The position numbers and the translations under genes are program-made. The notes under the pieces are model-generated. The model was not told where the DNA came from and did no database searches. It saw nothing but the letters and a program-made list of their open reading frames with translations. From the NCBI GenBank assembly GCA_030655755.1, contig JAUSOQ010000066.1:1-64000 (forward strand): 64,000 nucleotides of DNA, in the 5' to 3' direction. The DNA is from Coriobacteriia bacterium (GTDB lineage Bacteria; Actinomycetota; Coriobacteriia; Anaerosomatales; Anaerosomataceae). Position 1 is the stretch's first letter, and the number at the start of each line of letters is the position of its first letter. This document shows positions 13,309 through 31,280 of this stretch, in pieces.

Positions 13309-13878
13309 TCAGCTCGGGCTCGATCCAGTATCCCTGGGACCCCCTGTTGCCCTCTCAGCCTCTTTGGTGTCACGCACACCCTTTTTCCACTCCAGGTCCT
13401 TGATCATGACCCTGAGCGCTTTCTCTCGGAGCTCTGGCTCTCGGACCGCCTCCGCTATGTACCGCGCCTGGTCCAACTCCTCCGTTGAGAGCGCAACCGG
13501 CTTTGTTCTGTCCGGCTGATAGAACTCCTCGTCTTCTAGATGGAGAGCTTCCCGGTGGCGCTCTTCTTGCACCTTCTTGGACACAGCGAACCGTATGCCC
13601 CTTACAGAGTTCTGACCGATTCGTGAATTGATGCCCTCCCGTAGTCGCTCAGCCATGAGGGTCAGCTCATTCGCCCATGCGGGCGAGTCGACGAAGACGA
13701 CAAGTTCTCCTTCTCGCATAGCGAAGCCTCTTGTGTGTTTGACTATCTCGCTACCGGCTACTTCCGGCCACACCTGTACGGCCTTTGACTCGTGCCGTTT
13801 CCCGTGCGGATCCAACTTCGCGAGGATGTCGCGACCAACATCACCGATCGACTCGGTCTTCCTTCGTCTCGCCATCAT
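13309..13878 (-). CDS. DUF721 / DciA-like protein
   Basis: A 189-residue protein. Residues about 10-100 match the DUF721 (DciA) domain: VWPEVAGSEIVKHTRGFAMR, then the strand-turn-strand GELVVFVDSPAWANELTLM and a final helix. The C-terminal 80 residues are charged and probably flexible. DciA is the ancestral loader of the replicative helicase DnaB in bacteria lacking DnaC/DnaI; the gene's place between recF and gyrB is the usual one in actinobacteria. Its start overlaps the recF stop by one base, so translation is likely coupled. Confidence 0.9.
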   Translation of the reverse strand: MMARRRKTESIGDVGRDILAKLDPHGKRHESKAVQVWPEVAGSEIVKHTRGFAMREGELVVFVDSPAWANELTLMAERLREGINSRIGQNSVRGIRFAVSKKVQEERHREALHLEDEEFYQPDRTKPVALSTEELDQARYIAEAVREPELREKALRVMIKDLEWKKGVRDTKEAERATGGPRDTGSSPS

Positions 13879-14991: not shown

Positions 14992-16092
14992 TCAGCCGAG
15001 CCGGACAGGCATAAGGAGATATGTGAAATCCTCGCCGTCCACCGACTTGATAATGCCTGGTTTCAGTGGGCTGACGATCTCAAGCGCGACCTTGTCTCCC
15101 TCTGCCACAGATATGCCATCGATGAGATAGGCGTGGTTGAAGGCTATCTCAACATCTTCACCAGTCGGGTGGATCTCAATATCTTCCTTCGCCTCGCCAA
15201 CATCTTGGGTCTGTGCGCTTAAGGTCAGTTTATGGTCGGCGATATTCACGCTGACGCGAAGGGGGGCGTTGTGTTGTGCTAGTAGTGACACCCTCTTCAC
15301 CGCCTCGATAAAACCCACCCTGTCGAGTACGGCCCTCGTTTGGTGTTCTTTAGGAATAAGTTGGCGGTAATTTGGGAACGCGCCTTCAATACGCCGAGAG
15401 ATAAATACTGTCTCTCCGAAAGCGAAGATGACTTGGTTGTCTGATACGCCAAGCGAAACAGTCTCTGTGGAGGCGGTGAGCCGCGCCACGTCCTCGATTG
15501 CGCGGCCGGGGATCACTACCTCAAGTACACCAACAACACCATCAAGCGCGACTTCTCTCAAGCAGAGTCTGTAGGAATCAGTGGATACCATGCGAAGGAT
15601 TCCTGCTTCGACAACGACAAGTACGCCCGTTAGGATCGGGCGGGTTTCATCCCCGCTGACTGCTTTTGAGACCTGATGCACCACTTGTGTGAAGACGTCG
15701 CCCGGCAACGAAACGGATTCTGTTGCGGATATGTCGGGGAATTTTGGAAAGTCTTCCGGGTTGAGAGTTTTGACGGTAAATACTGACTGCCCACATGTGA
15801 TGGTTGTTGGTCCTCCGGTTTGAACGTCGATAGTCACTGCAGCCTCAGGAAGACTCCGCACGATGTCAGTTAGGAGTTTTCCGGGGAGGACGGTCTGGCC
15901 AGCCTTCTCTACTCGAGCCTTCAGTTTCGTTTTGATGGAAATCTCAAGATCCGTCGCCTGGAGGATCAATGTGTTATCGATCGACGAGATGTGTACTCCT
16001 GACAAGATCGGCAAGGTGGTTCGAGAGGATAGGCCTTTCGATACAGCTGAGAGTGCTTCTAGGAGTTCTCCCCGGGCAACAGAGACCTTCAT
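14992..16092 (-). CDS. dnaN: DNA polymerase III beta sliding clamp
   Basis: A 366-residue clamp with the three-domain layout typical of bacterial beta. The N-terminus MKVSVARGELLEALSAVSKG and the C-terminal LLMPVRL peptide, which helps form the protein-binding pocket, are both present. It forms a ring dimer around DNA that tethers the polymerase. The ATG at 16092 follows AGAGAGGAAC. It is separated from dnaA by about 214 bases containing DnaA boxes and a TAG-repeat tract, so its promoter lies inside the origin. Confidence 0.98.
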   Translation of the reverse strand: MKVSVARGELLEALSAVSKGLSSRTTLPILSGVHISSIDNTLILQATDLEISIKTKLKARVEKAGQTVLPGKLLTDIVRSLPEAAVTIDVQTGGPTTITCGQSVFTVKTLNPEDFPKFPDISATESVSLPGDVFTQVVHQVSKAVSGDETRPILTGVLVVVEAGILRMVSTDSYRLCLREVALDGVVGVLEVVIPGRAIEDVARLTASTETVSLGVSDNQVIFAFGETVFISRRIEGAFPNYRQLIPKEHQTRAVLDRVGFIEAVKRVSLLAQHNAPLRVSVNIADHKLTLSAQTQDVGEAKEDIEIHPTGEDVEIAFNHAYLIDGISVAEGDKVALEIVSPLKPGIIKSVDGEDFTYLLMPVRLG

Positions 16093-16306: not shown

Positions 16307-17680
16307 TTAATTACGCTGTTTCACCAGGTTTGTGAGCGTTTGAATCTGATTGTAGACTTCACGCTGTTCATTCATGAGTTTTTGAATCTTACTGGTGGCA
16401 TGCATGACCGTAGTGTGGTCCCTACCCCCAAACTCACTACCTATCCTTGGAAGAGAGAGGTCGGTCAACTCCCGCGAGAGATACATAGCTATCTGCCGGG
16501 GATAGACGATCGCTTGTGACCTCTTGTTGCCGACAAGCTCGACTTTCGTGAGGCCATAGAACTTACAGACCTCCTGTTGGATCACTGAAACCGAAATAGG
16601 TTTCATCGTCCGTTCCGGGAAGATGTCTTTTAAAACGCTCCGGGCGAGATCGAGATCGATAGGGTGTCGAGTCAATGAACTGAATGCCACAACACGGATC
16701 AACGCACCTTCAAGCTCACGTATGTTCGAAGATATGCGGTCAGCTACGAATAAAAGGACCTCATTAGGGATAACAAGACTCTCAACTTCCGTTTTCCTGC
16801 GAAGGATAGCTATCCGGGTTTCAAGATCAGGCGGTTGGATATCAGTGATGAGACCCATCTCAAAACGACTCCGTAGGCGGTCCGCGACATCACCTATCTC
16901 TTTTGGTGGCCTATCCGAAGACAGAACGATCTGCCTGCCTGCCTGCTGCAGTGTATTGAAAGTGTGGAAAAACTCCTCCTGGGTCCCCTCCTTGCCGGCA
17001 AGGAACTGGATGTCATCAACCAAGAGGACATCGTTTGTGCGGTAGCTGCGACGAAAGCCCTCGATGCGACTCTTGTCTCGGTTGCCGATGGAATTGATGA
17101 AGTCGTTGGTGAATTGCTCTGTGGATACATACTTCACATTCATGTGGGGGAAGCTTGTTTTAACGTAGTGCCCGATGGCCTGCAGGAGGTGTGTCTTACC
17201 GAGGCCCACTCCCCCATATATAAAGAGTGGGTTGTAAGCGCCACCTGGTGTTTCTGCTACCGCTAAGGCAGCTGCGTGGGCAAACCGGTTCGACGAACCC
17301 ATAACAAAAGAGTCGAAGGTGTACTTTGGATTGAAGTCACCATCCGTTACTTCCTTTGCGCGGGTCCTCTCTTTATGTTCAAGGTCGGATATCGCCGCGA
17401 CGGGTTCTGGTTCTGCTGGCGCAGGGATCACCGACTCCCCCACAACCCTGAAAGACACAGACATCGCCTGGCCCGTGACTTGTGTCAGCGCGGACGAAAG
17501 TAGTCCTGAGTATCTAGACTCCAACCAGTCTCTTGCGAAGTCATTCTGTACCGAGACGACCATTATTTCGTCAACCATACCCAAGGGCGCCGTGTGTTCG
17601 AACCATGTCTTGAATGTAGGCGTGTTGAGCTCCTGCCGAACCACGTCAAGTGTGTCCTGCCAAACTTGTTGAACCTCCAT
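16307..17680 (-). CDS. dnaA: Chromosomal replication initiator DnaA
   Basis: A 457-residue DnaA. Domain I occupies residues 1-80 ([23 protein letters not shown]). A linker follows. The AAA+ domain has Walker [14 protein letters not shown], Walker [15 protein letters not shown] and the initiator-specific motif. The C-terminal DNA-binding domain ends with the signature [12 protein letters not shown]. The ATG at 17680 was chosen because it opens the recognised domain I and has GGGGTG upstream; an open frame extends to 17728 but overlaps the preceding gene. It lies 14 bases after the ATPase/HTH gene, with which it is probably co-transcribed. Confidence 0.98.
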
Positions 17681-17693
17681 TGCCACCCCTGAT

Positions 17694-18530
17694 CTATCCA
17701 CTGAAAAGCGCATCCAAGCAACGGACACCAGTTACAGTGAGTGTCCGCTTCCCGGTTTCATCTGAAGAGATGAGGCCCTCAACCTCAAGTGAAGCCAGGT
17801 CGCGATAGGCGGTTGAGAGGCCAACGCCAAGCTCCTTAGAAACGATCGTTGGACCAACCGATCCGAACTCCATCGTCAATGACAACACCTGTTTTTGCCT
17901 GGTGGACAAAGAGGGCACGGGGTCATCTGGTGTGTCAACAACCAACCCACTCGCGCTCTCCCTTGATAAACCAGCTGGCGCTGTTCGCAGGGTGACGACC
18001 GTCCCTCGTTCAAGGTTGTCCTCGATCACGATTGCTCCACCCGCGAACCCAAGACACTCCCGTGCTACAGGAAGGCCCGAGCCCACACCCTTGATGACTC
18101 GCTTCATGTCTTCGGTCGCAGTGGAAAAACCTGGCTGAAACGCTCTCTCTTTATCGTTGATGCCGGGACCCTGATCCGCAAACCGGATCGTGTTGCCACC
18201 ATCAAGTACCGAAACGACCACTTCATAGAACCGGGCGTGTATTAAGTTCTCTACGATTTCTCGAATGACGACATAGGGCAGGTCGCCACCTGCCTCATGT
18301 GAGAGCTGGTACGCCCTGGAGGAAAGGGCCTCGATCAAGGCGCGCGGGTTATCGCCGAGAACCTCCTCGATTCGAGGAGGAGCAGTCAACGCATCATAAA
18401 TGGCAATACGCACAGAAGAGGGCTCCGTGTTCACCCTTTGCTCAAGTGGGCGAGAGCGAGGCTCGTCCATCGTCTGAGAATCAAGAAGGGGCGTAGTCTG
18501 AGCGGGGGTGCTTCCAAAGAACGTCTTCAT
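17694..18530 (-). CDS. GHKL-ATPase plus winged-helix protein at the head of the dnaA operon
   Basis: A 278-residue protein. Residues about 85-185 form a histidine-kinase-like ATPase fold without a phospho-accepting helix pair: N-box [10 protein letters not shown] (90-99), G1 box DQGPGI (119-124) and G2 box GVGSGLP (148-154). Residues about 209-268 look like a winged helix-turn-helix ([23 protein letters not shown]). This resembles anti-sigma-type ATPases joined to a DNA-binding domain. The ATG at 18530 was chosen for the GAGGGGGG upstream. DnaA-box-like sites sit in its leader and dnaA follows 14 bases after its stop, so it may sense ATP or a partner and influence dnaA expression or initiation. 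That role is inference. Confidence 0.85.
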
Positions 18531-19165
18531 ACTCACCCCCCTCACGTCTAAATCCTGAGCATCCACAGACTTATCAACAATCGACCTACGTTGGCTATCT
18601 GGACAAACCGCTGGTCGCAGGCGTATCTGCAACCCTCATTCTGCGCTCAAACCCTGCTTGGTGGAAGCGTGTCAACTGCAGTTTCCTGGTTTATCCACAG
18701 AACTTTCCACAACTGTGGATATCCTTTCACCCAAAAACCTCACTTGTTACATAAACGTGCTGGTGAGAGCGATTCAGAGCTGCCATAGGGCTTCCAGGAG
18801 CCTTCTCCCCGCACCTAAACAACCGGGAGTTGTGGACAGAGGTAGACTCATGTCGGCCACAATTGAAAAGGCTGTGGATAAATCAATCGCCAGCATAGCG
18901 TGTATCTACTAAGGAAGCTTACTGGGCGCCAAACGGGGCTTTTTCAAGGTAACCCAGAGATCCATAGGGGCCTATGAGGTAGTGCTGATTCTAGCAAACC
19001 CCCCAGGGCTGAACAACACGGGAGGTCCGGTTATCCACAGGCTCCCCAGGGGCGCATCCTGGGTTTTCCACATTATCCACAGATTCTTGACTTTTTTTCA
19101 GCACGACAATGGAAGGGGAGGGACGGTGTGTTGGCCGCCTGTGGAAACCCTACCGGGACGATTCG
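18531..19165. other. Origin of replication region (upstream part of oriC)
   Basis: About 630 bases without a convincing gene. Perfect DnaA boxes TTATCCACA occur at 18691-18699, 19031-19039 and 19073-19081 on the plus strand, and at 18873-18881 on the minus strand. Near matches occur at 18571-18579 (TTATCAACA), 18714-18722 (minus), 19064-19072 (TTTTCCACA, directly abutting the perfect box after it) and 19140-19148 (minus). The divergence of dnaA and rpmH around it is the classic oriC setting. A T-run follows the tandem boxes at 19092-19098. Confidence 0.93.
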
Positions 19166-19195
19166 TTGACACTTGTTCTCTGCCACCGCTATAAT
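19166..19195 (+). promoter_or_regulatory. Promoter of rpmH-rnpA
   Basis: A consensus -35 TTGACA (19166-19171) and a consensus -10 TATAAT (19190-19195) are separated by 18 bases. This is the strongest sigma-70-type promoter seen in the window, fitting a ribosomal protein gene. A DnaA-box-like site lies about 18 bases upstream. Confidence 0.9.
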
Positions 19196-19244
19196 CACCG
19201 GGCTTGGCGTCCGGGTGACGGGCGCCGTGGAACGGAGGAATGTA

Positions 19245-25005: not shown

Positions 25006-27921
25006 GTGGGCCTGTACGTCGTTACGGGAGCAGCCAACGCGGGGAAGACGGGTGCGATCCACACCGCCGTCCGTACGGCCACGAGTCATCGGGAGACAGC
25101 CGTTCTTCTGTTGCCGTCGGTGCCGGACGTCCGCCGGGCGCAGAAGGAGCTCTCGATCGAATGCGCGGTCGGTCTGTCCGTAAGTGCGTTCGACCCGTTT
25201 CTCGACATGTTGTGGAACCAGCTCTGCGAGGGCCGTTCGATCGTCAGTCGGACGCAGCGGCCTTTGCTCATACACAAGGCGGTGGCTCGCGCCCGGCTGG
25301 ATGTACTCGGCGAGTCGTCGCAGCGGCCAGGCTTTGCGCGTCTCTTAGAGGATCTGGTGGTTCGTGCCGCCGAGGGCGATGCACTGCGGGGTCTTCCGGT
25401 ATCAGAATCGGGTGCGGGTGGAGAGATTCTGAGAATCCTGGCCGCGTACGCTGTGTTGCTCTCGGAAGAGAACCTCATCGAGCAGGCGGAGGCACACGGA
25501 GTGGTCTCGGCGCGAGTCGACGAGATCGAACTGCCGTCCGTCATTGCCGTGAACCGGTTTGGCAGCCTCACTCTGCAGCAGGAGCGCTTCTTGTGCGCCG
25601 CCGCCCCATACAGTGAGGTCTGGATAGGGCTGACGTGGGTGAAGGATGCTCCCGCGACTACATCTGCCGAGGCATTGGTGCACAGACTCGCCAGGATCGG
25701 GACGCTTATGGCGGTGCCCCTTTCACCTCCCGCCGAAGATACGCCCGTCGAGCTTACGATGCTTGAGCGGGCATACCTCATGCTGGAGAGCGGGCCCGAG
25801 CACGCGGTCACGCCATCAGGGGCGGTGATCCTCTCCGAGGCGTGGGGAGCGGAGGCGGAGGCGGCACGCATCGCGCGTGAAGTCCAGGACGCCCTAGCGG
25901 ATGGCGTCGTGCCCGGTGAGGTCGCCGTGGTATTCCGCGACCCACTGCGTCACGTCGATGGGATACGTTCGGCTTTCAAAGACGTGGGCATCGCGGCAGA
26001 GTATGACCTGTACATGCTGGTCTCTTCCACAGGTTACGGCCGCGCACTCGGGCAACTGCTGTCCTTCTTCTGCGTCGGCGGTGAGCGTCGTGACCTGATC
26101 GGGTTCTTGAGGACGCCCTATGTCGATGTAGCGCACGATCGACTCGATGAGTTCGACGCCCGTATGCGGCGGGCCCGAGTATCAGAGACAGGCAAGCTGC
26201 TCGCCAGCGCGCGACAGGTGGACCCAAGAGTCGCAGAGACGCTTCAACGAGCCGAGAGGCTGTGCGGCAGGAAGGTCACCACAAAGACGCTCCCGGAGTG
26301 GCGCAGATTGATGATCGACATGATCAGCGTCGCGTATGGGCAAGCCCCGCACCTCGATGCGAGTGGCCTGATCGATGCGAGGGCGATGGGTCTGGTGTTC
26401 GACGCGATCACCGAGATGGCGTCTATTGAAACCGCGGAGTTCCGTGCTCGGGACATACTCGCATGGTTGAAAGACGCCCATGTGGCGGTCTTCTCCCAGG
26501 AGCGCATCGATAGCGTGCAGGTTCTGGGGGCGGAACGCATGAGAGGACGCCGCTTCTCTCGTGTCATCTTGGGTGGGCTGACCGCCACCGAGTTCCCAAG
26601 TCTGCCGTTGGAAGATGCTCTGACGGCCACGGTCGTCTCGTCGAAGCTTCGGCGCCATGACATCGATGTATCGCCTCGCGTCGACATCGATGCGGAGAGA
26701 TTGCTCTTCTACCAAGTGATCACACGGGCACGCCATAAGCTTGTATTGAGCCGCTGCGTGTCTGACGAGGAAGGACGCCCCCTGCGTCCATCCCCGCTTC
26801 TCGAGGAACTACTCGATCTCTATCGGGATGCGGCGAAAGGGGAGGACGCCTGGTATGGCGCCGCTTTGCCCGTGAGGGTCGTCACGCTGTCGGATCTGGC
26901 CACGAGCATTGACGCTCCAACAACAGAACGCCGCAGGCTAAGGCAAGTGTTGGCAGAAAATGGCAAGTCGAATGATGTGTCGATCGAACCTCGCGTGCTC
27001 CTCGCACGATGGCGGAATCGCGCCAGAGCCGCCTGTCTCGGCGATGCGATCGCGGAGGGTCTTGCCGCTCAAACGGTGTACTCCGTGAGCGACATCGAAC
27101 TGTATCTCGCATGCCCGTACCGGTGGTACGTCGATAGAGTGTTACGACCCGAGTCACTCGATGCCGGACTAGACGCCAGTGTGACCGGACGCGCGGCGCA
27201 CGAGATCATGAGCCGCTTCTACAGAAGCTACGAAGAGCAGACCGGAGAGCGACGCATCACGCCCGCGACCCTACAGACTGCACTGAGCATCCACGCAGTC
27301 GTTGCCGACGAGGTACGGGCGTCGGTTCGCGCGGTAGGACTGGCCGAGGAGAGCAAGGTTCGCAAGCTCGTGCGTGCGACCCGCCGTCTTGTCGAGGAGG
27401 ACGCCTCGCTGCTGGAGGACTTCGTGCCGACCGCGCACGAGTGGAGCTTCGGACTTGGCGATGATGAGCCCGAGGACCTCGGTACGTTCGCTTTGCGCGG
27501 ACGTGTCGATCGCATCGACGTAGGCTCCGGGGGGTTCATCATCACGGACTACAAATCGGGGAGTGTCTCAGGCAAGCAGATGGCAAGGTTCGCTGACGAG
27601 GGCCTGGTGCAACTGCCCCTGTATGCGGAGGTTGTTCGGCGGCGTCTCGATTTTGGAAGGCCTGTGGGAGGTTTCTATCGTTCGATTCTGAGTATCGGTA
27701 AGCCGCGAGGGTTCTTCCGCGAGGAGGAGCTGGACGTCAGCCGGTTCTCAAGGACGGACCGCTGTTCGGAGGAACAGGTCTTAGAACTCATCGCCGATGC
27801 GGTCGCTCGTGCTTCCGTAGCGGTCGAAGGCATGCGGGCAGGGCGGATCGACCAGAACCCGAACCAAAAGCGTTGCCCGACGTACTGCTCTGCTCGGGTC
27901 TACTGCGAGGGGAGGGGCTGA
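25006..27921 (+). CDS. AddB-like helicase/nuclease subunit
   Basis: A 971-residue protein resembling AddB/RexB. It has a Walker A GAANAGKT at residues 8-15, a degenerate superfamily-1 helicase core (AERMRGRRFSRVILGGL), and a C-terminal PD-(D/E)XK nuclease with DRIDVG...IITDYKSG. The cysteines CPYRWYVDRV before the nuclease and RCPTYCSARVYCEGRG at the end fit an iron-sulfur staple as in AddB and Cas4. The GTG at 25006 follows GGGGGAG. Its stop shares a base with the start of the AddA-like gene. The pair should process double-strand breaks for RecA. Confidence 0.9.
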   Translation: MGLYVVTGAANAGKTGAIHTAVRTATSHRETAVLLLPSVPDVRRAQKELSIECAVGLSVSAFDPFLDMLWNQLCEGRSIVSRTQRPLLIHKAVARARLDVLGESSQRPGFARLLEDLVVRAAEGDALRGLPVSESGAGGEILRILAAYAVLLSEENLIEQAEAHGVVSARVDEIELPSVIAVNRFGSLTLQQERFLCAAAPYSEVWIGLTWVKDAPATTSAEALVHRLARIGTLMAVPLSPPAEDTPVELTMLERAYLMLESGPEHAVTPSGAVILSEAWGAEAEAARIAREVQDALADGVVPGEVAVVFRDPLRHVDGIRSAFKDVGIAAEYDLYMLVSSTGYGRALGQLLSFFCVGGERRDLIGFLRTPYVDVAHDRLDEFDARMRRARVSETGKLLASARQVDPRVAETLQRAERLCGRKVTTKTLPEWRRLMIDMISVAYGQAPHLDASGLIDARAMGLVFDAITEMASIETAEFRARDILAWLKDAHVAVFSQERIDSVQVLGAERMRGRRFSRVILGGLTATEFPSLPLEDALTATVVSSKLRRHDIDVSPRVDIDAERLLFYQVITRARHKLVLSRCVSDEEGRPLRPSPLLEELLDLYRDAAKGEDAWYGAALPVRVVTLSDLATSIDAPTTERRRLRQVLAENGKSNDVSIEPRVLLARWRNRARAACLGDAIAEGLAAQTVYSVSDIELYLACPYRWYVDRVLRPESLDAGLDASVTGRAAHEIMSRFYRSYEEQTGERRITPATLQTALSIHAVVADEVRASVRAVGLAEESKVRKLVRATRRLVEEDASLLEDFVPTAHEWSFGLGDDEPEDLGTFALRGRVDRIDVGSGGFIITDYKSGSVSGKQMARFADEGLVQLPLYAEVVRRRLDFGRPVGGFYRSILSIGKPRGFFREEELDVSRFSRTDRCSEEQVLELIADAVARASVAVEGMRAGRIDQNPNQKRCPTYCSARVYCEGRG

Positions 27922-30900
27922 TGTACCTGAGCGATGAACAGCGTGCCGCAGTGGACGCAGGCCCTGTCGATCTGTTCATCGGAGCGGGCGCCGGCTCGGG
28001 TAAGACGCGCGTACTCACCGCTCGTTTCGTACACGCCGTTCTGGGTCTGTCGCCGTACCCTGAGACGCCCGCGCGATCGATCCTCACCGTCACGTTCACG
28101 GAGCGTGCCGCCGGCGAGCTTGCCGAGCGGATCAGGGGGAGCCTGGTGGCTGAGGGCTCGACCGAACGAGCATGTCACGTGGAGGATGCATGGATCTCCA
28201 CGATCCACGGCATGTGTAGCAGGATCTTGCGACAGTATGCGTTCGATGCCGGACTCGATCCGCGTTTTGCGGTCGCGAACGAGGTCGAGGCGGGCATGCT
28301 TGCTCACGACGCGCTGGAGGCGGCCATCCGCAACTCGATCGCCGTTGGTGACGAGGACGTTGGACAGCTCCTTGACGCGATGGGCTTCTCGGCGATCATG
28401 ACGACGGTGAGCGATCTCCATGCGAACATCCGCTCAATGGGGCGGTCGCTCCAAGAGGTCTTGCTGATGACGCGGGAGGATGTGCGTGCGCGCATCGATG
28501 CAGTGGTTGCGGGACTCGAGCGCGTGAGGGAGCGCATGGCTTCAACGTGTCGCACGGGGCTCAAGACCGTCTCAGACAATCTGGAGCTTCTTGAGCAAGC
28601 GGAGAACGTGGGACGCGCGATCGTCGCGAGCGGTCTTCTCGGCGACGCGGGTCCTCTCTGCGAACTTGCGCTTGCGAAGCGTATCGGCGGAGACGAGCTC
28701 CACAACGGACTGGTCGAAGAGGCGAACACGTTTATCGAGCAGCTCACGATGCTTGACGCACAACGCATAGTGCGGCCGTACGAGGAGGCATTACTGCGCC
28801 TTCTCGTTGCGTTTCACGACGCATACGCGGCGCTTAAGGCCGAGCGCAGCCTGCTGGACTTCGAGGACTTGCAGGTCCTCGTGGCCGACCTGCTCGAGAA
28901 GCGCCCGGATATCGCACGGGAGTATCGTCAGCGTTTCCGCATGATCATGATCGACGAGTTCCAGGACACCAACGAGCTACAGCTCAAGATAGCCGGGTAT
29001 CTCTCGGAGGAGAACCTTTGCACGGTGGGGGATGATAAACAATCCATCTACTCGTTCAGGCACGCGGACGTGAAGGTCTTCAGGGGCAGGGAGAGTACGA
29101 CCAAGCGCGTGGAGCGTTTGGCGGACAACTACCGGTCGCACCCGGAGCTGTTGGCGTTCTTCAACGGTCTGTTCGGCGCGGAAGCGTTCTTTGGCGCGGG
29201 GCTCATGCACTTGAAGCCCGGCGATCGTGAGCCGGCGGCGAACGGCTGGCCGGAGACCCGGGAGCGCGCGCGCGTCGTCTTCGTAGACGTTGAGAAGGGT
29301 TGCGGCTTGTCAGGAGCAGAGGCCGAGGCGGTGACGATCGCCGAGGAGTTCGCAATCCTGCGCGACCAAGGGGTCGCTCAAGGCGACATGGTCCTGCTGC
29401 TTCGAAAGATGAGTGGAGCCGTAGAGCTGTTCGAGCGTGAGTTGAAGCGCCGTGGCTTCGACGTGTTCATCGCATCGGGCGGGATCTACTTCGACACGCC
29501 GGAAGTCGGCGAGCTCACCGCGCTACTGAGGCTCGCCGACAACGCGTTCGATGACGAAGCGGCCGTCACGGTGCTCGCGGGCCGTTTCACCCGTGCGAGT
29601 GATGAGAGCCTGTTCCGCCTTCGTGAGGCGGCGGGACGTGGCAGCCTATGGGGGGCGGCATGTCGTGCGACGGATCTGGTGATCGCCGATGCGGACAAGC
29701 GTGTGATTGCTCAGACGGTCCACGTCGTCGAACGGATGCGGTCAGCGAGGGGTTCGGTGCCGCTGAGAGAGCTGCTCCTGGAGGCCTGTGAGTGGCTGGA
29801 CTACGATCTGACGCTGTTCGCCGGAGGCGAGAACGGTTCGCGTGCGTGGGCGAACGTCTTAAAGCTCGCGCGCATGGCCGAGGAGTTCGAGGACTCGGCC
29901 CACGGTGATATCGGTTCGTTCTTGGACTACCTCTCGCTTCGCGATGAGCATGTCGCCTCCGAGCAACAGGCGACAGTAGCGGGCGAGCGTGCCAAAGCCG
30001 TACGCATCATGAGTATCCATGCCGCCAAAGGACTCGAGTTTCCCGTGGTGGGAGTGGCGTCGTTCTCAGGTACGGCGCCAGGCCCTCGGAGCACTCTCGT
30101 TGGTCGGTCGGGGGAGTCGCTTCTTCTTGGCATGAAGCTGCCACTGCCGGAGGGCTCCCGGCGCACCTCGGCCGATACGACCGCACACGCTCTTCTTGCA
30201 AAGGACGTGAAGACGACCGATGCCGAGGAGATCAAACGACTGCTGTACGTGGCATGTACGCGTGCCGAACACGGACTTGTGTTGTGCATACGCGACGATC
30301 TCACCAAGCCGTCCACTGGAGGTTCGCTACCGGCCCTCGTGCGTCAGGCGCTTGGCTTCGAGGAGTGTGGGCCACAAGTCGACCAGCATGTGACTCTCGC
30401 CAACGGAGCCCAGGTGGACGTGCGTGTCACAAAGCCCCAAGCGGATGCTCGGGCCATTGGAACGCCAGATACCGCGCGCGTATGTGAAGAGCCGCCGCCC
30501 CTGCCGGAGGCGCCTGAACCGATTGCGGTCAGCTCGACTGCGCCAACCATCATCTCCTACAGCGGACTCGGCCTTTACGCGAAATGCCCGTACCGTTTCT
30601 ACGCCAAGAAGATCGCCGGTTTCCCGCTGCCGATACGGCAGAGCGGGTCCCGCGGCACGGACCCGCGCGATTTCGGGAACGCTGTGCACGAGGCCTTACG
30701 GGAGGCGTGCGGCGCCACCGTTCCGGATGAGGCGCGGCTGGCTTCGATCGCCCACGCCCATGGTGTTAAAGACGATGCGATAGGTCGACTGAAGCGTTCG
30801 GTCGCGGCGTTCACATCATCCACGCTCGCCGCCGAGGTCCGATCAGCCGAACGGGTCCTCACCGAATGCTCCATAAACGCGCTCGTGAACGGGACCGTTC

Positions 30901-31280
30901 TGGTCGGCTCCATCGATCTGCTCGCGTGGAGCGGTGAGACCGCGCTCGTGGTCGACTATAAGACCGGCAGCAGTGAACTCCCTGCCGAGGAAGCCCGCAG
31001 TCGCTATGAACTGCAGGCGTCATGCTACGCGCTTGCCGTGCTGCGGACAGGGGCCGGGCGGGCCAGGGTCGTGTTCTTCGAGTCAGAGCGCGGTGGTCGA
31101 CAGACCGAGTTCCTCTACGAGTCGAACGACGCCCACTTCGTGGAGATGCGCCTGGGGGGCATGCTCGATACTATGGCTGCGGGGGAGTTCTCGCCCCTGG
31201 CGTCTTACGATGCCTCCGTCTGCGACGATTGCGCAGCGTTCGGGGCGTTGTGCCCGGTCACTCGGCGTGACGCTGACTGA
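27921..31280 (+). CDS. AddA-like UvrD-type helicase/nuclease
   Basis: A 1119-residue superfamily-1 helicase. It has the motif I GAGAGSGKTRVLTARF (about 20-35), motif II MIMIDEFQDTNELQ, motif III VGDDKQSIYSFRHAD, and later motifs including MSIHAAKGLEFPVVG and YVACTRAEHGL. The C-terminal nuclease has FGNAVHEALREA and LVVDYKTGS. CPYRFYAKKI before the nuclease and CDDCAAFGALCP near the C-terminus provide four cysteines placed as in iron-sulfur nucleases, which is unusual for AddA. The ATG at 27921 overlaps the AddB-like stop by one base. Its 3' end overlaps rlmN by 23 bases on the opposite strand. Confidence 0.92.
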   Translation: MYLSDEQRAAVDAGPVDLFIGAGAGSGKTRVLTARFVHAVLGLSPYPETPARSILTVTFTERAAGELAERIRGSLVAEGSTERACHVEDAWISTIHGMCSRILRQYAFDAGLDPRFAVANEVEAGMLAHDALEAAIRNSIAVGDEDVGQLLDAMGFSAIMTTVSDLHANIRSMGRSLQEVLLMTREDVRARIDAVVAGLERVRERMASTCRTGLKTVSDNLELLEQAENVGRAIVASGLLGDAGPLCELALAKRIGGDELHNGLVEEANTFIEQLTMLDAQRIVRPYEEALLRLLVAFHDAYAALKAERSLLDFEDLQVLVADLLEKRPDIAREYRQRFRMIMIDEFQDTNELQLKIAGYLSEENLCTVGDDKQSIYSFRHADVKVFRGRESTTKRVERLADNYRSHPELLAFFNGLFGAEAFFGAGLMHLKPGDREPAANGWPETRERARVVFVDVEKGCGLSGAEAEAVTIAEEFAILRDQGVAQGDMVLLLRKMSGAVELFERELKRRGFDVFIASGGIYFDTPEVGELTALLRLADNAFDDEAAVTVLAGRFTRASDESLFRLREAAGRGSLWGAACRATDLVIADADKRVIAQTVHVVERMRSARGSVPLRELLLEACEWLDYDLTLFAGGENGSRAWANVLKLARMAEEFEDSAHGDIGSFLDYLSLRDEHVASEQQATVAGERAKAVRIMSIHAAKGLEFPVVGVASFSGTAPGPRSTLVGRSGESLLLGMKLPLPEGSRRTSADTTAHALLAKDVKTTDAEEIKRLLYVACTRAEHGLVLCIRDDLTKPSTGGSLPALVRQALGFEECGPQVDQHVTLANGAQVDVRVTKPQADARAIGTPDTARVCEEPPPLPEAPEPIAVSSTAPTIISYSGLGLYAKCPYRFYAKKIAGFPLPIRQSGSRGTDPRDFGNAVHEALREACGATVPDEARLASIAHAHGVKDDAIGRLKRSVAAFTSSTLAAEVRSAERVLTECSINALVNGTVLVGSIDLLAWSGETALVVDYKTGSSELPAEEARSRYELQASCYALAVLRTGAGRARVVFFESERGGRQTEFLYESNDAHFVEMRLGGMLDTMAAGEFSPLASYDASVCDDCAAFGALCPVTRRDAD

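Follow-up and report, generated by a model that had tools for sequence, protein, structure and literature searches.

The gene considered here lies at 17694..18530 on the minus strand of the window, by which we mean the whole 64,000-nucleotide stretch of Coriobacteriia DNA that was analysed. It encodes a 278-residue protein, with MKTFFG as the translated N-terminus, in which a GHKL ATPase domain is followed by a winged helix-turn-helix (wHTH), and it is the first gene before dnaA (16307..17680, minus strand; 457 aa), itself followed by dnaN (14992..16092, minus strand). An earlier note on this DNA had put the gene 14 bases upstream of dnaA; it is indeed directly upstream, and the gap between its stop codon and the dnaA start measures 13 nt. 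The open reading frame is real and its bounds are correct. The start codon is assigned to the ATG at 18530 because the ribosome-binding stretch GAGGGGGGTGAG lies just upstream of it and because most orthologues of the same order begin alike, with MKTFF or V/L-K-x-F-F/Y. Elsewhere in the window, a gene for DciA lies between recF and gyrB (13309-13878, minus strand; PF05258, E 1.8e-17); this helicase operator is the one to be expected in the absence of dnaC/dnaI. Downstream of parAB (25006-31280, plus strand) comes an AddB/AddA-like pair, namely a gene for a PD-(D/E)XK nuclease and, after it, one for a UvrD helicase-nuclease.

The domain assignments bear out the earlier note's description of a GHKL-type ATPase that has no phospho-accepting histidine and is joined to a wHTH. 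Residues 86-182 (17985..18275, minus strand) match the HATPase_c model PF02518 above its cut-off (45 bits against 26.4, E=1.7e-11), as do all 43 family members compared (43/43), and domain-model searches of the protein found no HisKA or other phospho-acceptor domain. The N box (RE91IVEN95LIHA, including H98), the G1 box (D119QGPG, D119-G123) and the G2 box (G148VGSG, G148-G152) are intact, as had been claimed. The C-terminal wHTH, residues 210-278 (17697..17903, minus strand), falls under the cut-off when this protein is taken singly and is clear at the family level, where HTH_IclR is matched by 35/43 orthologues (best E 4.7e-11), TrmB by 28/43, and MarR with a best E of 9.5e-9. The AlphaFold model (mean pLDDT 84) places a beta hairpin (38-59) and one helix (62-79) ahead of the GHKL fold, and builds the wHTH from helices at 210-222, 227-234 and 238-250 with wing strands, mostly at pLDDT above 90. 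The recognition helix, at about 238-250, varies by lineage, reading STAYRDL in the window's order and PTWSREL or SSTYVTL in other lineages. In the orthologues at L050, L066, L049 and L062 the segment joining the ATPase to the winged helix is some 100-170 residues longer, with P, Q, A, Y and G abundant in it.

Conservation is concentrated in the ATPase boxes and in the N-terminal hairpin. N95, H98, D119, G121, G123, G134, G148, G150, G152 and G176 are invariant in 112/112 orthologues, and E91, which occupies the position of the catalytic Glu in GyrB/MutL/SpoIIAB-type proteins, is kept in 111/112. This is the residue pattern of a working ATP site, as judged from the alignment, and such retention of E91, N95, D119 and the glycines suggests that an active site is under selection. 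The hairpin at residues 39-59 (VRIAIYD...PPRIEEV; 18354..18416, minus strand) has nearly invariant A43, Y45 and P52; that these are conserved like the active site suggests a structural role or a role in dimerisation. Residues 1-38 (18417..18530, minus strand) form a variable tail modelled at low confidence, with an order-specific [M/V/L]K-x-F[F/Y] start. In the orthologues L002-L030 this motif precedes about 30 residues that are otherwise unconserved, and it may be a binding peptide.

Homologues scattered away from dnaA in relatives would have spoken against the regulatory role proposed in the earlier note, and none was seen when adjacency was checked over 112 distinct loci: the gene lies directly before dnaA on the same strand in 110, and contig ends truncate the remaining two. 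These 110 comprise 104 loci with dnaA inside the locus and six split across contig ends, in which the gene stands at a contig end and dnaA in the first bases of the same contig; the six are counted as adjacent since this pattern is expected for a circular chromosome cut at dnaA. In the window's order the gap between the two genes is 13-70 nt, and rpmH lies divergently upstream in nearly all loci that hold it. At one locus (L047, genome G163) rpmH is missing from this usual place and the gene still precedes dnaA. Because bacteria in general keep the order rpmH, dnaA, dnaN, recF, position by itself says little about function. The placement before dnaA is exceptionally well supported, and the mechanism set out below is what we infer from it and from the protein itself.

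The family is nearly universal among the sampled genomes of the class, where 256 of 272 high-quality genomes have an orthologue at a strict limit, and it also occurs in other classes of the phylum. A search of 61 near relatives, the genome itself included, gave strong matches in 45 and matches above a loose limit in 58, the weak matches at that limit being other GHKL proteins; a scan of contigs with one protein returned only one close relative. By profile search the family occurs in 158/397 genomes sampled across the phylum, in 14/31 of another class, and in 0/198 of the class to which genome G321 belongs (probably Actinomycetia). Distances between the proteins track those between the DnaA proteins of the same loci (Pearson 0.76, 99 loci), a correlation by which inheritance is vertical-like. 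A mobile or horizontal origin was rejected, as plasmids, phages and viral contigs hold no close homologue and the plasmid matches are weak (~50 bits); in the one inspected (H3), a gene for an ATP-binding protein comes immediately after a response regulator gene. An association with defence systems was likewise rejected, as the PADLOC matches reflect only the wHTH common to CARF/Csa3 proteins.

When 21 genomes of the class were checked for absence, 12 proved to have no dnaA and two to have dnaA at a contig end only, which are assembly gaps, and one (G064) carries the gene. The remaining six (G036, G047, G051, G066, G068, G074), from at least three lineages, are true in-place absences in which rpmH faces dnaA directly with no intervening gene. 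No relocated full-length copy was found in these six by profile search, the matches being partial and mostly within long kinase-sized frames; a full-length-looking weak BLAST match in G047 (28% identity) was not confirmed by the profile. The gene therefore either stays before dnaA or is lost, has been lost several times, and is dispensable in some lineages, as the clean losses show. The loss loci (L128 in G051, L125, L126, L129-L131) retain several DnaA boxes and constitute a natural experiment.

Between the gene and rpmH lies a 714 bp region (18531..19244) with an origin-like cluster of seven DnaA boxes (at most one mismatch) where 0.1 would be expected. Their positions are kept across the order and the cluster extends to about 19081. 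The DnaA-box-like sites that the earlier note saw in the leader are confirmed as a conserved pair, CATCCACAGACTTATCAACA (18560..18579), made up of the box TTATCAACA (18571-18579) and the near-box CATCCACA (18560-18567); a box lies within 75 nt of the gene start in 24 of 33 relatives, compared with an expected fraction of 0.5%. Further boxes form an inverted pair (18691..18722; boxes at 18691-18699 and 18714-18722), a single site, TTATCCACA (18873..18881, minus strand), and a plus-strand triplet at 19031..19081 (19031-19039, 19064-19072 and 19073-19081), where conservation within the interval is highest. A conserved promoter-like site, TTGTTC-N17-TAGAAT with the extended -10 TGNTAGAAT (18988..19016, minus strand), points toward the gene and dnaA, and recurs about 470-495 nt upstream of the gene in 22/33 relatives, while a divergent promoter for rpmH, TTGACA-N18-TATAAT, is at 19166..19195 on the plus strand. 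In other families the interval has fewer boxes, with a median of 2 at no more than one mismatch against 0.12 expected. At L015 its length exceeds that in relatives by about 300 bp. The interval is probably the origin, from which the gene-dnaA unit would be transcribed outward. Alignment of 30 upstream regions gave no gene-specific DNA element, and no leader RNA element was matched in Rfam. CAGGA and TTGAAAA-GCC were considered as a gene-specific operator and rejected, as both are largely kept in relatives that have no gene.

We propose that the protein is a transcriptional regulator of the one-component kind, gated by nucleotide and dedicated to the dnaA unit, and we give this reading a probability of roughly 0.45. 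The GHKL domain would bind ATP and probably hydrolyse it slowly; the nucleotide state, relayed by way of the N-terminal hairpin and of a dimer, would decide whether the winged helix at the C terminus is free to bind DNA; and the winged helix would most likely bind the origin and promoter interval upstream of its own gene. In this way the regulator could tune transcription of the gene-dnaA-dnaN unit, such that the supply of DnaA would follow the energy state of the cell or a bound ligand or partner. ATP turnover, gating through the dimer, the DNA target and the direction of regulation are steps that we infer. No separate regulator gene lies between this gene and dnaA, and therefore the wHTH on the protein itself is the obvious means of output. 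The architecture, the conserved ATP site, the fixed position, the loss in place, the boxes and the promoter-like site argue for such a regulator, whereas the repeated loss of the gene, and the persistence in most gene-less relatives of conserved blocks that are neither DnaA boxes nor promoters, count against it. Since the recognition helix diverges among lineages, a single ancestral DNA site would not have been retained.

The same interval could instead be the site of direct action, with the protein binding beside the DnaA boxes and helping or blocking DnaA assembly or unwinding in an ATP-gated manner, as a counterpart, particular to these lineages, of YabA, Soj, DiaA or SeqA. The gene adjoins the box cluster at nearly all loci of the order, and the conserved leader pair lies within 75 nt of its start. 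Searches of 21 relatives for YabA and Hda gave nothing above the cut-off, with positive controls detected, and for that reason an initiation regulator separate from the known DnaA controls, which the earlier note suggested, fits what was found. However, the cluster contains no conserved non-DnaA site linked to the gene, many of the boxes are retained by relatives that have no gene, and the recognition helices diverge while the boxes stay. We regard direct action at the origin as unlikely; an initiation factor working there is, in our view, no more likely than a regulator of dnaA-unit transcription. Quite improbable in our judgement is a kinase or partner switch in the manner of SpoIIAB/RsbW or CapK, in which the GHKL domain would phosphorylate or sequester a partner (DnaA, perhaps, or a regulator whose gene lies elsewhere) and the wHTH would target it to DNA or would sense DNA. 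The E-x3-N-x2-HA form of the N box resembles that of the anti-sigma kinases, the anti-sigma F model is matched weakly (E=0.0024), and there is a precedent in CapK/CapS, where a GHKL kinase governs a wHTH repressor beside its operon (PMC13373217); but no STAS-domain partner is visible at the locus, HATPase_c_2 is absent among the matches listed, and the closest structures are ATP domains of sensor kinases. That the protein regulates other genes and merely stays at the origin through frozen gene order is improbable to the same degree, for while the general conservation of that order and the dispensability of the gene in some lineages would allow it, the gene stands apart from dnaA at none of the loci examined across diverse classes, and in the order it lies 13-70 nt from dnaA with a promoter-like site and a long leader common to both.

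The proposed dnaA-unit regulator matters in so far as the control of DnaA outside E. coli, Bacillus and Caulobacter is largely open. A gene that stands before dnaA through nearly the whole class makes a concrete candidate for such control, and one that is easy to test; its carriers apparently include gut Eggerthella and Rubrobacter-like lineages, and the lineages that have no gene offer a natural comparison. A wider hypothesis, which we hold only tentatively and think rather doubtful, is that an ATP-gated GHKL-wHTH protein, produced from the very dnaA unit and binding the origin/dnaA promoter region, forms a hitherto undescribed, ancestral layer of replication control deep in the Actinomycetota, coupling energy state to initiation where YabA and Hda are undetected.

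In comparison with known systems, the protein belongs to the GHKL superfamily, with a Bergerat fold and the N, G1 and G2 boxes, and its C terminus has a winged HTH fold of the IclR/TrmB/MarR-like kind, for which sequence-specific DNA binding is putative. The curated models that match are all of generic domains, and neither a curated full-length family nor a paper on this dnaA-upstream protein was found in the searched sources. Both modules, GHKL and wHTH, are known; their dnaA-linked fusion appears undescribed in those sources. YabA, Hda, Soj, SeqA and DiaA are comparable in possible role only, having no sequence relation to the protein and folds that differ from its own. Its best sequence and fold matches are the CA domains (PF02518) of sensor histidine kinases, namely KinB (3d36), HK853, CpxA and PhoQ, which share the N, G1 and G2 boxes; it is not a two-component sensor kinase, as it has no HisKA/DHp phospho-acceptor helix or phospho-accepting His, no sensor and no membrane part, and it carries a DNA-binding domain on its own chain. 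With MutL, GyrB and Topo VI-B it shares an RE-x2-EN N box with the catalytic Glu (MutL match E 1e-4), and differs from them in having no transducer and no nuclease or topoisomerase domain. With SpoIIAB and RsbW it shares the GHKL fold, a Glu four residues ahead of the N-box Asn and the HA that follows, whereas it bears a wHTH, has no HATPase_c_2 match, scores 17.8 bits against a cut-off of 135 on TIGR01925, and shows neither an anti-anti-sigma partner gene nor a STAS partner nearby; it is therefore not assigned to the anti-sigma kinases. CapK, an HTH-STAS-GHKL kinase of immune operons with a separate STAS-wHTH substrate, CapS, provides a functional analogue, namely a GHKL kinase with a wHTH output that controls the adjacent operon (PMC13373217), whereas the present protein is a single fused chain with another domain order, no STAS domain and a link to dnaA, and falls outside CapK. 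The nearest solved full-length architecture is the DIP2311-type protein 3lmm, in which a winged helix likewise comes C-terminal to a GHKL ATPase (Foldseek, 264-271 columns, E 2.4e-6), at 15-16% identity and a TM score of 0.41-0.45. The domains of 3lmm are AlbA_2, HATPase_c_4 and wHTH; the 278-residue protein matches neither AlbA_2 nor HATPase_c_4, which places it apart from the COG2865-like proteins and leaves the GHKL-then-winged-helix plan as what the two have in common.
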